Source: Deltaproteobacteria bacterium
Lineage (GTDB): Bacteria > Myxococcota_A > UBA796 > GCA-2862545
Direction: 5' to 3'
Assembly (NCBI GenBank): GCA_006226595.1
Contig: SBGP01000103.1
Coordinates: 1-64,000, forward strand
Length of the DNA stretch: 64,000 nucleotides
The translations under genes were made by a program, and so were the position numbers. The notes under the pieces were generated by a model. The model searched no databases. It saw only the letters and a list, made by a program, of their open reading frames with translations, and was not told the DNA's origin. Positions 31,690-38,968 of this stretch are shown piece after piece (within the stretch, counting starts at the first letter, position 1; every line of letters starts with the position of its first letter).

Positions 31690-32451
31690 TCACTCGTCTG
31701 GAGGGTCGGTGTCTCCTTGCGTTTCGCGAATAGGAGAATTTGCGGAAATCAGGCTCAGCGCGCGCATGTTCAGGGCGTCGTACAGTTCGCGTTGCACGAC
31801 GAGTCCCGCATCGTTGAGCGCGCGGCGATGATTCTCGATGACTGCGTGATCCCCTCGGGCGACGGGTCCGGTGAGAGCGCGGGAGGGATCGGGTACGGCG
31901 TTCGCCAGCGACCGAAGGGCGAGGGGAGCGAGGACCCCCGCCGCCTCCTCGCGCGGCACGCCGGCGGCGACGAGCACCTCGCAGGCCTCGGCGAGGAGCA
32001 CGGTCGCGAAGTTGCCCGCCATCACCGCGGCTGCGTGGTAGAGCCGACGGTCGCCGGGCACCACCAGCGGGCGCATGCCGAGGCGCTCGGCGAGCTCGCG
32101 GCCAATGGTCAGCGCCTCGGGGTCGCCGGCGAGCGCGGCGGTCACCCCCGTCAGGTCCGGCAGGCCGACTTCCGGTCCGGGAAACGTCATCAAGGGATGG
32201 AAGCTGCCCGCGGGGTGGTGGGGATGCAGCACCGCGACCTCGGTGGCACCAGAGCAGTGCAACACCGGCGTGCCCTCGGGCAGGTCGCGAATCGTGCGGA
32301 TGGCCGCATCGGGAACCGTGAGCAGCACGGCGTCGGTGTCGGCGTCGATCGGCGCGCCACGCCCGAGAAGACGGACCTCGACACCGACTCGGGGAAGGAG
32401 CTGCGCGAGGGAGCGGCCGAGGCGACCGGGGCCGACGAGGGTGATGTGCAT
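31690..32451 (-). CDS. Rossmann-like plus DUF2520 domain protein (putative dehydrogenase)
   Basis: A 253-aa NAD(P)-binding protein. The nucleotide motif is I-T-L-V-G-P-G-R-L-G (3-12), followed by V-L-L-T-V-P-D and the H-C-S-G pattern seen in F420-dependent NADP reductase-like and pyrroline-carboxylate-like folds. G-S-F-H-P-L-M-T-F and the C-terminal helical domain with Y-H-A-A-A-V-M-A-G-N identify the Rossmann/DUF2520 family, whose substrate is not established. In other genomes this family often sits near pantothenate synthesis genes; that context is absent here. It is transcribed divergently from the crotonase gene with 54 nt between starts. Confidence 0.85.
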   Translation of the reverse strand: MHITLVGPGRLGRSLAQLLPRVGVEVRLLGRGAPIDADTDAVLLTVPDAAIRTIRDLPEGTPVLHCSGATEVAVLHPHHPAGSFHPLMTFPGPEVGLPDLTGVTAALAGDPEALTIGRELAERLGMRPLVVPGDRRLYHAAAVMAGNFATVLLAEACEVLVAAGVPREEAAGVLAPLALRSLANAVPDPSRALTGPVARGDHAVIENHRRALNDAGLVVQRELYDALNMRALSLISANSPIRETQGDTDPPDE

Positions 32452-32505: not shown

Positions 32506-33279
32506 GTGTCGCTAGTGCTCATCGACTGCCACGAGGGTGTGGCCACGCTCACGTTGAACCGTCCGGAGCGGCGTAATGCGCTGTCCGGAGCCCTGGTCGA
32601 GTCCATTCACGAGGCCCTCGACGAGGTCGAGAAGGATCCCGAGGTCCGCGCCGTCGTCCTCACCGGCGCCGGTCGTGCCTTCTGTGCCGGCGGCGACCTC
32701 GCGGGAGGCATGGGCGGGGACTCGTTCCTGGACGGCCACCTCGGGCGTGGGCGCTACGCCGAGCTCCTGTCGCGCATGCCGCGCCTGCGCGTGCCGCTCG
32801 TGGCTGGTGTGAACGGCGATGCGCTCGGCGGTGGCCTCGGCCTCGTCGTCGGCTGTGACCTCGCCGTGGCCGATCCTGCCGCGCGCCTCGGAACCCCCGA
32901 GATCAAGGTGGGGTTGTTTCCGTGGATTATCCTCGCGGCGCTGCAGCGGCACGTGCCGCGCAAGGCGCTGGTCGAGATGGCCCTGCTCGGTGAGCGGTTC
33001 CCTGCCGACCAGGGCGTCGCGCTCGGACTGCTCAACCGACTGACCGCGCCCGGTGAAGCGCTCGCCGAAGCTCAGGAGCTCGCTGGGCGCCTCGCCTCGC
33101 GCAGCCCGGCGATCGTCGCGCTCGGCAAGTCCGCCTTCGCGCGGGTGTCGGACATGGCCTACGACGACGCGCTCGCGTACCTCCACAGCCAGCTGTCCCT
33201 GAACCTCCTCACCGAGGACGCCGCCGAGGGCATCGGGGCCTTCCTCCAGAAGCGGGAGCCCCAGTGGAAAGGCCGCTGA
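32506..33279 (+). CDS. Enoyl-CoA hydratase/isomerase (crotonase) family protein
   Basis: A 257-aa crotonase-fold protein. It has L-N-R-P-E-R-R-N-A-L (17-26), the first oxyanion-hole strand F-C-A-G-G-D-L (59-65) and the second G-D-A-L-G-G-G (104-110). The acid/base Glu equivalent to Glu164 of rat hydratase is kept (Glu132 in T-P-E-I), but the Glu144 equivalent is Gly112 (G-G-G-L-G). It is therefore likely an isomerase, thioesterase or decarboxylase-type crotonase rather than a hydratase. The GTG at 32506 has GGGAG 5 nt upstream. It overlaps the pseudo-biotin-carboxylase gene by 16 nt. Confidence 0.9.
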   Translation: MSLVLIDCHEGVATLTLNRPERRNALSGALVESIHEALDEVEKDPEVRAVVLTGAGRAFCAGGDLAGGMGGDSFLDGHLGRGRYAELLSRMPRLRVPLVAGVNGDALGGGLGLVVGCDLAVADPAARLGTPEIKVGLFPWIILAALQRHVPRKALVEMALLGERFPADQGVALGLLNRLTAPGEALAEAQELAGRLASRSPAIVALGKSAFARVSDMAYDDALAYLHSQLSLNLLTEDAAEGIGAFLQKREPQWKGR

Positions 33280-34604
33280 TCCAGCGCGTGCTCATCGCGA
33301 ACCGCGGTGAGGTCGCCCGTCGCCTCATCCGGCACTTCAAGGCCCAGGGCATCGAGACCATCTCCGTGTTCTCCGAGCCCGACGTCGATCAGCCGTGGGT
33401 GGAGGAGGCCGACTACGCCGTGTACCTGAACGGTCGCACGGTCGCCGAGACCTACCTCGACGCCCAGAAGATCGTGTCCGCGGCGATGGATGCTGCGGCG
33501 GACGCCATTCACCCCGGGTACTGCTTCCTCGCGGATCGGGTCGACTTCTACGCACTGTGCGAGAGCGCGAACCTGTTCGCCTATGGCGCCGGACGCCCGC
33601 TGCTCGAGGTCGTCGGTGACCGCATCGCGGTGCGCGAGCTCGGGCGCAGCCTCGAGCTCGACGTCGTGCCGGGCAGCGACGTGCTCACCCAGGACATGGA
33701 CATCGTCGCCGAGGCGGTCCAGGTCGGCTTTCCGCTGTACATCAAGGCCCAGCACAGCAGCCGCTGCCGGCGTGTGGCCCAGCTGTCCGAGCTCGGCCAG
33801 GCCCTGGGCGAGTTCCAGCAGGCGACGCGCGATGCCGTGTTCCTCGAGCGCGCCATCGATCGCATGCGCTACATCAGCGTCGTGGTCGTCGGTGACGACG
33901 AGGTGGGCAGCGTGCCCCTCGGAATCGTCGACTCGTCGATCCGCACGCAGCAGCAGACCTGGATCGAAGAGATGGGCCCCGAGGTCGTCCCCGGCGAGTT
34001 CGGGCTCGCGATCCAGGGCGCATCGGTGGCCCTGGCCGATCAGCTGGACTGGCGTGGTGTGGGTCGCGTGCGCTGGGCACTGTCGGGCGGGAGCGTTTTC
34101 CTCATCGGCTTCACCCCGCGTCTGCCCACCGGGTACTCGCTGACCGAGGCCGTCCACGGGCTCGACCTGCTCGAAGTCCAGGAAAAGACGCTGGTCGGGG
34201 GGCACCTCGGTTGGGGGCACCTCGACACCCAGCCGAACCGTGCCGGGCTCCAGCTTCGGCTGATCCACATCCCCGAGTCCGACGGTCAGCGCGCCGAGGG
34301 CGTGCTCGAGACCTTCGACCTCCCGGAAGGAGAGGGTGTGATCGTCGAGACCGCCCTCGAGGCGGGGCTCACCCTGGGGCCGGACACCGAGCCGCTGCTC
34401 GCCAAGATCACCGTGCTCGCACCCACGCGGCAGGCGGCCATCGTCAAGGCGCGCGCGGCGATTGGGGCGGTGGCGATCGAGGGGGTTCGACACAACGCGG
34501 ATGCGCTCCGTGCGGTGCTCGAGGACCCGCGCTACTGGTCCGGAGACCTGCACCTCGACACGCTCAGCGCGAAGCTGCGCGAGCTGGCGGGGGATGCCGG
34601 CTAG
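33264..34604 (+). CDS. Degenerate biotin-carboxylase (ATP-grasp) homologue
   Basis: A 446-aa protein that aligns along its length with acetyl-CoA carboxylase biotin carboxylase: R-V-L-I-A-N-R-G-E-V-A-R-R (8-20), D-A-I-H-P-G-Y (80-86), G-D-R-I-A-V-R-E. Key parts are lost. The ATP loop GGGGRG is H-S-S-R-C-R-R (164-170), HIEVQ is Y-I-S-V-V (203-207), and the Mg/catalytic E-M-N-x-R-L-Q-V-E-H strand is I-G-F-T-P-R-L-P-T-G-Y (281-291). ATP-dependent biotin carboxylation is very unlikely. The GTG at 33264 has GGGAG upstream and overlaps the crotonase by 16 nt, suggesting a complex with it. Perhaps a regulatory subunit. Confidence 0.8.
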   Translation: MERPLIQRVLIANRGEVARRLIRHFKAQGIETISVFSEPDVDQPWVEEADYAVYLNGRTVAETYLDAQKIVSAAMDAAADAIHPGYCFLADRVDFYALCESANLFAYGAGRPLLEVVGDRIAVRELGRSLELDVVPGSDVLTQDMDIVAEAVQVGFPLYIKAQHSSRCRRVAQLSELGQALGEFQQATRDAVFLERAIDRMRYISVVVVGDDEVGSVPLGIVDSSIRTQQQTWIEEMGPEVVPGEFGLAIQGASVALADQLDWRGVGRVRWALSGGSVFLIGFTPRLPTGYSLTEAVHGLDLLEVQEKTLVGGHLGWGHLDTQPNRAGLQLRLIHIPESDGQRAEGVLETFDLPEGEGVIVETALEAGLTLGPDTEPLLAKITVLAPTRQAAIVKARAAIGAVAIEGVRHNADALRAVLEDPRYWSGDLHLDTLSAKLRELAGDAG

Positions 34605-34667
34605 GGCGTGCACGGTTAGCCGTGCCGGAAGCTGCGCCCTCGAATGTCGGGCGCCAGGAGGCTTCCG

Positions 34668-35036
34668 TTGTCCTACCGTCCCCAGCGGGTCGGCGAGATG
34701 ATCTTCCGCGAGCTCGCGCTGCGCCTGCGCACCGAGGTCAAGGACGAGCGCGTCGGCGACATCTCCATCACGCGCGTCGAGGTCAACCGCGACCTGTCCC
34801 GTGCCGTCGTGTTCTTCCTCCCGCTCGGTGGCGGCGAGGTGAGCGCCGAGCTGGCCGAGGGCCTGGTCGAGGCGGCTCGTCAGCTGCGCGGACCGATCGG
34901 ACGCTCCCTCCGTCTCCGGCATGCGCCCGAGCTCGTGTTCAAGGAAGACACCGAGCACGACAAGGCGCTTCGCGTCGCTCGCCTGCTCGACCAGATCGCG
35001 CATGACCGCGAGGAGGAGAGCGGGGAGGAGTCGTGA
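34668..35036 (+). CDS. rbfA: Ribosome-binding factor A, TTG start
   Basis: RbfA helps 16S rRNA 5'-end maturation and 30S assembly, especially in the cold. The 122-aa protein has S-Y-R-P-Q-R-V-G-E, the KH-like fold with V-G-D-I-S-I-T-R-V-E-V-N-R-D-L and L-R-H-A-P-E-L-V-F. A TTG at 34668 carries a perfect AGGAGG six nt before it, while the ATG at 34644 has none, so TTG is preferred. The end overlaps the GTG of truB (GTGA). In most bacteria infB precedes rbfA; here a pseudo-biotin-carboxylase gene does. Confidence 0.92.
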   Translation: MSYRPQRVGEMIFRELALRLRTEVKDERVGDISITRVEVNRDLSRAVVFFLPLGGGEVSAELAEGLVEAARQLRGPIGRSLRLRHAPELVFKEDTEHDKALRVARLLDQIAHDREEESGEES

Positions 35037-36007
35037 CCGCCGCTTTCCTCGTGATCGACAAGCCCGCTGGCATCACCTCGCACGATGTCGTGGCCGCGGT
35101 GCGCGCGGTGACGGGCATCAAGAAGGTCGGTCACACTGGCACGCTCGACCCCTTCGCCACGGGTGTCCTCCCGCTCGCGCTGGGGCCGGCCACGCGTCTC
35201 ATCGAGTTCCTCGACGAGGGACTCAAGGTCTACGACGCCACGGTCCAGCTCGGCTCTGCGACCGATACCGGTGACTTCACCGGCGAGGTCGTGGCCGAGG
35301 TCCCGGTGCCCGATCTCGACGACGACCGCATCGACGAGGTCCTCGAGCAATTCCTCGGGGAGCAGGGCCAGCGGCCGCCGATGTACTCGGCGATCAAGGT
35401 GAAGGGCAAGCCCCTCTACAAGTACGCGCGCAAAGGCGAGATCATCGAGGTCGCCGAGCGGCGCATCACCGTGTACGACCTCGCGGTCGTCGAGCGCGCC
35501 GAGGGCATGCTCCGGCTGAACATTCGCTGCAGCCGCGGCACGTACGCGCGTGTGCTCGCCGACGACATCGCCACGGCGCTCGGAACCCGCGGACACCTCA
35601 CCGCACTGGAACGTCCCCGTTCCGGTCCGTTCTTCCTCGAGGATGCGCTGTCGATGCCCGCGCTCGCCGAGCTGGTGGCTCCCGGCAGCGGACGCCCGTG
35701 GGAAGACGTGCTCCTCACGCGCCGCAAGGGCGGGGAGCGGGTGGCCTGGCGCCCCCGCGACGAGGTCCGTGCGGGCCTTGCCCCGTGGCTCAAGTCGCCG
35801 CTCGAGGCGCTGTCGCACCTGCCGATGGTCGACGTGACCGAGTCCGTGGCCAAGCGCATCCGCTCGGGTGGTGCACCGCCACCGCCGCCTCGCGCGGTCG
35901 AGGGTGGGGGGCGCTTCGTCGCGGCGCTCGGTGACGAGCTGGTCGCCGTGTTCGAGCGCAGCGAGCGCGGCGTGCGCAGCCTGAAGGTGATTCCGCCGGC
36001 AGAGTAG
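35033..36007 (+). CDS. truB: tRNA pseudouridine(55) synthase
   Basis: Makes pseudouridine 55 in the T-loop of tRNAs. The catalytic Asp39 is in G-H-T-G-T-L-D-P-F-A-T-G-V-L-P. Other family marks are the start F-L-V-I-D-K-P-A-G-I-T-S-H and the C-S-R-G-T-Y-A-R segment. The 324-aa length includes an extra Pro-rich C-terminal section (G-G-A-P-P-P-P-P-R) beyond the catalytic domain, probably a PUA-like remnant. The GTG start overlaps rbfA by four nt, so both are coupled. Confidence 0.95.
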   Translation: MTAAFLVIDKPAGITSHDVVAAVRAVTGIKKVGHTGTLDPFATGVLPLALGPATRLIEFLDEGLKVYDATVQLGSATDTGDFTGEVVAEVPVPDLDDDRIDEVLEQFLGEQGQRPPMYSAIKVKGKPLYKYARKGEIIEVAERRITVYDLAVVERAEGMLRLNIRCSRGTYARVLADDIATALGTRGHLTALERPRSGPFFLEDALSMPALAELVAPGSGRPWEDVLLTRRKGGERVAWRPRDEVRAGLAPWLKSPLEALSHLPMVDVTESVAKRIRSGGAPPPPPRAVEGGGRFVAALGDELVAVFERSERGVRSLKVIPPAE

Positions 36008-36017
36008 GGGCCCGACC

Positions 36018-36046
36018 TTGACGGCGTGCCTGCCCCGAGGCATATG
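36018..36046 (+). promoter_or_regulatory. Sigma-70-type promoter for rpsO
   Basis: TTGACG (36018-36023), a 17-nt spacer and CATATG (36041-36046) match a housekeeping promoter well. Transcription would start near 36053, leaving about a 100-nt leader before rpsO, long enough for S15 autoregulation as known in E. coli. Confidence 0.55.
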
Positions 36047-36153
36047 GCGACCCGTCCGGACACGTCGTCCGGCAAACTCACATGCCGGAAGCGACGGCAC
36101 CTCGGGTTGACGCCAGCCCGACCACCTGTTGCTCCCGGGTCGAGGAGAATCTC

Positions 36154-36423
36154 ATGGCGCTCTCGCCCACGGACAAGGCCGCGATCATCGAAGAGTACAA
36201 GACCCACGAGGGAGACACTGGCTCCCCCGAGGTCCAGATCGCGATTCTTACGGCCCGCATCCGTTACCTCACGGACCACTTCAAGTCCCACCACCTGGAC
36301 CACGCCTCCCGGCGCGGTCTGCTCAAGCTGGTCGGTCAGCGTCGCAAGCTTCAGAAGTACCTGAAGAACGCCGACGCCGAGCGGTACGAGTCGCTGCGTC
36401 AGCGCCTCGGCCTGCGTCGCTAA
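36154..36423 (+). CDS. rpsO: 30S ribosomal protein S15
   Basis: An 89-aa protein with the typical helix bundle: [35 protein letters not shown] and [10 protein letters not shown]. It binds 16S rRNA in the platform and is an early assembly protein. The ATG at 36154 has GAGGAG 6 nt upstream; an in-frame ATG at 36082 is not needed. It is followed by a terminator and then pnp, the widely conserved order. Confidence 0.97.
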
Positions 36424-36431
36424 GGTTCGTG

Positions 36432-36462
36432 AGAGCGGCTCCCTCGGGGGCCGCTCTTTCGC
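36432..36462 (+). terminator. Terminator after rpsO
   Basis: An 8-bp perfect stem AGAGCGGC / GCCGCTCT with a 10-nt loop is followed by TTCGC TTTC. It is T-poor, so possibly an attenuator that lets some reads continue into pnp. Confidence 0.65.
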
Positions 36463-36859
36463 TTTCGGCCTTCGGTTTCGAGGCGTCCTTCGTGGAACAG
36501 TTTCGAACCGGACGCAGGGCGGCTGATGCCGCCGACCGGAAGCAGGGCTATATGCCCACAGTCCCCGAGCGGGACACGCTCTTTTCATGTCACACCGCAC
36601 CGAGACGTGCTCCGCAGCTCTTCACGGGCTGAGCGCGGTCTGACCCCGGTTTCCGGGGGATGCCCACTGCTCATTCCGGGTAGGTCTGTGGGTCACGGAG
36701 CAGGTTCTCCGCAGCGGACACAGCCGCTCGCCGCCACCGAGCGCGGCGGGGCGGTCGTCTGCGCGTGGACCAACGTGTCGTCGCGGTGATTTCCATCACC
36801 CGTCCCGCCTCGTCTTCCGAGGTCGGGAGGAGTCCATCGAGACTCCACGAGGAACACAC
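36463..36859 (+). promoter_or_regulatory. Long pnp leader region with a hairpin next to the start
   Basis: About 400 nt without a credible gene precede pnp. Short reading frames inside have poor codon patterns. The last part folds: GGAGTC (36829-36834), a 6-nt loop, GACTCC (36841-36846), directly before GAGGA and the GTG. In E. coli the pnp leader hairpin is cut by RNase III and then bound by PNPase itself; this arrangement would suit such feedback. No clear promoter is visible in the rest. Confidence 0.4.

Positions 36860-38968
<2,109 letters not shown>

Follow-up and report, generated by a model that had tools for sequence, protein, structure and literature searches.

What can a biotin carboxylase (BC) homologue still do once its active site is gone? 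This question is raised by a gene pair in the 64,000-nucleotide stretch of contig SBGP01000103.1 analysed here (hereafter the window). The upstream gene (32506..33279, + strand, GTG 32506 to TGA 33279) encodes a crotonase-superfamily acyl-CoA enzyme of 257 aa (Pfam ECH_1, 1.2e-50), and the downstream gene (33264..34604, + strand, GTG 33264 to TAG 34604) encodes the central feature of the locus, a BC-fold pseudoenzyme of 446 aa that we refer to as the pseudo-BC. According to the ORF coordinates, the 3' end of the crotonase gene and the start of the pseudo-BC gene overlap by 16 nt (33264..33279, + strand), as the initial annotation had described. This overlap, which it took to tie the two genes together, is not general: spacing in orthologues ranges from -16 to +16 nt, and the -16 overlap recurs in genomes G001 and G014, with other spacings elsewhere.

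The overall architecture of the pseudo-BC is that of a biotin carboxylase. Pfam models Biotin_carb_N, CPSase_L_D2 and Biotin_carb_C all match above their gathering scores (E-values of 4e-28, 3.8e-15 and 4.9e-16), so that it shares the full-length three-domain organization of AccC and of the BC domains of propionyl- and methylcrotonyl-CoA carboxylases (PF00289 + PF02786 + PF02785). NCBIfam AccC and urea-carboxylase models reach about 1e-67, yet fall far under every curated cut-off, as expected for a diverged relative; identity to biotin carboxylases is 26-31%, with the length being the same. The AlphaFold2 model (33-sequence alignment; pLDDT 94.5, pTM 0.92) finds only biotin carboxylases or BC domains of biotin-dependent carboxylases among the best 50 PDB matches listed, the closest by VIA-align being E. 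coli BC (3rv3_B, Z 48.3, rmsd 2.3 over 437 residues). The complete BC fold is thus predicted to be retained, in agreement with the initial reading that length and fold had been kept. Such strong E-values to BC domain models also carry a warning for annotation, as pseudo-BC genes could easily be misnamed acetyl-CoA carboxylase subunits.

The active site tells a different story. In alignments we compared the window protein to intact BCs of the same and related genomes and to E. coli AccC, a reference whose suitability is shown by its canonical residues and by 43-56% tblastn identity to intact BCs. The glycine-rich ATP loop is absent, IKASGGGGGRGM being replaced by IKAQHSSRCRR, with a gap at the loop in PDB alignments as well; a remnant, QHSSRCRR (residues 163-170; 33750..33773, + strand), stands in place of ASGGGGGRGM, and the GGGGxG lid loop is missing from all readable homologues at the locus. 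In E. coli BC numbering, the metal/ATP residues are substituted (E276R, E288G, N290T), as are the bicarbonate/catalytic residues K238T, Q294P and E296G (R292 and R338 being kept), and further changes are K116R, H209Y, E211S, Q233R and H236Q. The metal/bicarbonate motif EMNTRIQVEH thereby reads GFTPRLPTGY (residues 282-291; 34107..34136, + strand), with R286 (= R292) kept. Four canonical residues that the initial annotation did not mention (K159, E201, R292 and R338) are still present; its claim that the ATP loop and the metal and bicarbonate residues had been lost is otherwise upheld, as the loop and nearly all such residues are gone. Judged from its residues, the protein cannot run the reaction of ATP, bicarbonate and biotin: the five lost sites K238, E276, E288, N290 and E296 are by themselves enough to exclude it, given established BC chemistry. 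Of the replacements, whose conservation in homologues the initial annotation had proposed to examine, R120 (= K116; codon 33621..33623, + strand) is Arg in every full-length pseudo-BC aligned (25/25), against Lys in 21/21 intact BCs.

Across the order, a pseudo-BC gene is found at a single locus, beside a DUF2520 gene and mostly before rbfA-truB, in about 45 of 63 genomes belonging to five families; this count combines 39 genomes recovered by profile, four shortened forms from family f2 and two contig-truncated fragments (G040, G058). The profile (A3) was made from a broader alignment so that f4-type pseudo-BCs would be detected in the class and phylum screens, and it leaves a clean gap between the pseudo-BCs of 39 genomes of the order, all at E <= 1.4e-132, and every other match in a phylum sample of 379 genomes, at E >= 2e-120. 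Every BC homologue at the locus with a readable active site is dead, at the same core sites, and no intact BC was found there in families f1-f6. Outside the order we found no pseudo-BC in the phylum sample, the ten best outside matches all being intact, and none elsewhere in the class, where readable BC matches in eight other genomes are all intact and L189 is a different, weakly matching protein. Orthologues sharing 38-73% identity occur in family f1, and there the crotonase gene lies next to the pseudo-BC wherever the contig extends far enough, G006 and G015 being the exceptions.

The order-wide layout comprises L28, a divergent DUF2520 gene, any of crotonase, BKACE (f4 only) and dead BC, and then rbfA-truB. 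In the window, the DUF2520 gene, which borders the locus on the left throughout the order, lies at 31690..32451 (- strand; Pfam DUF2520 1.7e-26), RbfA at 34644..35036 (+ strand; recognized from its ORF translation and a syntenic ORF elsewhere) and TruB at 35033..36007 (+ strand; ORF translation and synteny). RbfA adjoins on the right in f1, f4, f6 (G037) and some of f5, and because rbfA starts 39 nt past the pseudo-BC stop codon, the two genes are probably carried on one transcript. The window reads, over 34604-36860, dead BC, rbfA, truB, rpsO and pnp. The DUF2520 gene directly adjoins rbfA in G002, G020 and G031, so that the acyl-CoA genes resemble an insertion between the two; the pseudo-BC has been lost at the locus in G002, G004, G016 and G020 and is thus not essential. 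In f2 (L051:9307-11120 (+) and other f2 loci), two genes of the AstE/AspA type, that is, succinylglutamate desuccinylase/aspartoacylase, follow the dead BC in place of rbfA-truB. Four f2 genomes (G026, G043, G056 and G045) have pseudo-BCs of only 333-342 aa, from which alignment shows the ATP-grasp lid (about E. coli residues 139-206) to be wholly deleted (L143:6693-7718 (+), L150:6687-7712 (+), L157:4941-5963 (-) and L152:5373-6371 (+)).

Phylogeny and selection both point to a maintained lineage. In the tree, a single clade of intact BCs is set apart from all pseudo-BCs at 100% ultrafast bootstrap, which is consistent with a single loss of catalysis. The ratio omega for the window-G001 pair is 0.213 for the pseudo-BC, close to the values for TruB (0.227), RbfA (0.21) and the crotonase (0.235), and it ranges from 0.05 to 0.30 in other pseudo-BC pairs. 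Among the lid-deleted proteins of G026, G043 and G056 (three pairs tested) it is 0.15-0.23, so that selection must act on something other than ATP chemistry. The pseudo-BCs are thus monophyletic apart from intact BCs, syntenic throughout the order and under purifying selection. An origin from a liuC-liuD pair was also considered and rejected: gene order is alike in L032/L137, but the pseudo-BCs are not nested within the 646-671 aa BC-BCCP proteins of the tree.

We therefore regard it as probable that these proteins represent a single ancient BC pseudoenzyme lineage, which had one origin no later than the radiation of the order and which has a non-catalytic binding, scaffold or regulatory role. 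With the reaction impossible, the whole fold kept according to the model and the protein maintained by selection, non-catalytic binding is the most likely function. The pseudo-BC would act as a scaffold or regulatory pseudo-subunit contacting another protein, or alternatively its pocket would bind an anionic ligand, as the remodelled site still offers Arg at 116, as a rule Lys or Arg at 159 and, in most cases within f1 and f5, R292/R338. As the putative contact we slightly favour one of the cell's own genuine biotin-dependent carboxylases over an unrelated partner or ligand. The remodelled pocket may instead have acquired a changed chemistry, a prospect that we count against the binding role, along with the loss of the gene in several genomes and the poorly preserved dimer interface described below.

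A more specific version, tentative though worth serious attention, holds that the pseudo-BC may be a pseudo-subunit of a real biotin-dependent carboxylase, pairing with an intact BC or capturing a biotin carboxyl carrier protein (BCCP), and so tuning assembly or activity. The complete fold of the model would suit such a role, and candidate partners are at hand: the genome encodes four intact BCs, all having a BCCP match no more than about 2.5 kb away, among them accB-accC on C25 (AccC at C25:126943-128274). The pseudo-BC is therefore not the BC of this cell, and none of the genome's BCCP matches, gene or domain, lies at the window locus; in this as in its lack of the glycine-rich loop and of ATP, metal and bicarbonate residues, it is unlike true BCs. 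What weighs against this role is that the pseudo-BC has no linkage to acc genes, that the lid is deleted in four genomes and that the dimer interface is poorly preserved. Of the E. coli interface positions, which we take to be R16, E23, F363 and R366, only R16 is largely kept; E23, F363 and R366 are not conserved, which makes a BC-like homo- or heterodimer uncertain. A published precedent for a non-catalytic subunit exists in the BADC proteins of plant heteromeric acetyl-CoA carboxylase (PMC11926652), dead copies of a carboxylase subunit known as regulators or assembly factors. By analogy, BADC and the pseudo-BC both have a carboxylase-subunit fold, lack a functional site and are retained as non-catalytic proteins; BADC, however, is a dead BCCP and not a homologue, and the carboxylase interaction of the pseudo-BC is only putative.

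Rather doubtful, in our view, is that the protein has been neo-functionalised, its ATP-grasp-fold pocket having become that of a sensor or new enzyme which binds, and perhaps acts on, another ligand. Residues E31, D76, R120, W317 and W425, which the alignment shows to be conserved specifically in pseudo-BCs, would fit such a change, as would the fact that E201, K/R159 and, in f1 and f5, R292/R338 are mostly kept. Against it, the metal-binding residues are gone, the lid is deleted in four genomes and pocket residues are not constant from family to family, as a single conserved new chemistry would lead one to expect.

The initial annotation had proposed another role, namely that crotonase and dead BC may make up a new acyl-CoA enzyme complex with the latter as its non-catalytic regulatory subunit. 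Its remark that the crotonase lacks Glu144 is correct: the window protein has Gly112 at that position and Glu132 at the Glu164 position, as do all readable orthologues (47-75% identical), and is thus no canonical two-Glu enoyl-CoA hydratase. As a mark of a novel enzyme the feature fails, since Gly at this position is common in other crotonases and hence ordinary, being found in the Thermus protein 1uiy, which resembles the window crotonase also in its Glu164 and full-length ECH_1 match, and in the crotonase beside an intact BC-BCCP gene (L032). Unlike such Gly144-type enzymes, the window crotonase belongs to an orthologous group of its own with a PE(I/V/L)..GLFP motif. The arrangement in L032/L137, which we presume to correspond to liuC-liuD, likewise has a crotonase gene immediately upstream of a BC gene, but there the BC is intact and carries BCCP, whereas the window BC is dead and has no BCCP, and the two crotonases are only 30% identical.

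For a complex speak the adjacency of the two genes, overlapping or nearly abutting, in about 19 genomes of three families (f1, f4, f5), and the purifying selection on both. Family f4 makes an acyl-CoA module plausible, as a BKACE gene (PF05853, beta-keto acid cleavage enzyme) lies there between crotonase and dead BC, exactly where the crotonase is present (L131:4712-5599 (+), L132:984-1856 (+), L134:5054-6013 (-)): both genes occur in 5/5 genomes and neither in 3/3 (p 0.018, kinship uncorrected). However, each gene is found without the other: the dead BC lacks a crotonase throughout f2 and also in G006, G015, G028, G032, G037, G042 and G048, and the crotonase lacks a dead BC in G004, G005, G016 and G017. 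In f2 the genes paired with the pseudo-BC are AstE/AspA-like. Fisher tests show no significant tendency for the two genes to be retained together (p 0.56 in f1; 0.22 in f1 and f3-f6), with counts entered by hand from the locus survey, f2 taken as about 17 genomes and kinship ignored. A dedicated complex is thus unlikely; of the original proposal the dead BC stands, and an obligate association is not supported. We read the crotonase encoded beside the pseudo-BC in f1, f4 and f5 as a separate, facultative acyl-CoA enzyme, probably co-transcribed with it but not required; a crotonase-tied role is possible in genomes having both, and cannot be general as the pseudo-BC persists without the crotonase.

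That the gene is a decaying pseudogene or a sequencing artefact, as its lost catalytic residues and varying loop lengths might suggest, is scarcely credible, since the reading frame is open over the homologous stretch in sampled genomes, omega stays within 0.05-0.30 and identical losses recur in many independent assemblies; comparative data and purifying selection thus rule out sequencing error or pseudogenization as the cause of the lost motifs, and neither a sequencing error nor an intact close homologue, the two findings named at the outset as fatal to a non-catalytic BC homologue, came to light.

A search of the open-access literature found no description of a dead, conserved biotin carboxylase family. 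Within the pseudo-BC lineage, proteins grade from the full-length BC fold to lid-deleted forms, all under selection, a natural series that allows one to ask what the BC fold does without catalysis. A broader proposal, unlikely to be right in every part, is that of an undescribed order-wide BC pseudoenzyme family, which would either predate its pairing with the crotonase or have arisen independently of it. Such a family would provide a regulatory subunit or a sensor of metabolites, acetyl-CoA carboxylase being perhaps the enzyme concerned, and through a gene usually placed before rbfA-truB it might link acyl-CoA metabolism with a translation-machinery operon.

Two minor observations concern individual genomes. 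The intact-type BC of G027 (L057:7962-9248 (-)) contains a short run of undetermined residues, either masked or an assembly gap. G004 and G016 (L125, L127) carry about 4 kb of extra genes between truB and rpsO.
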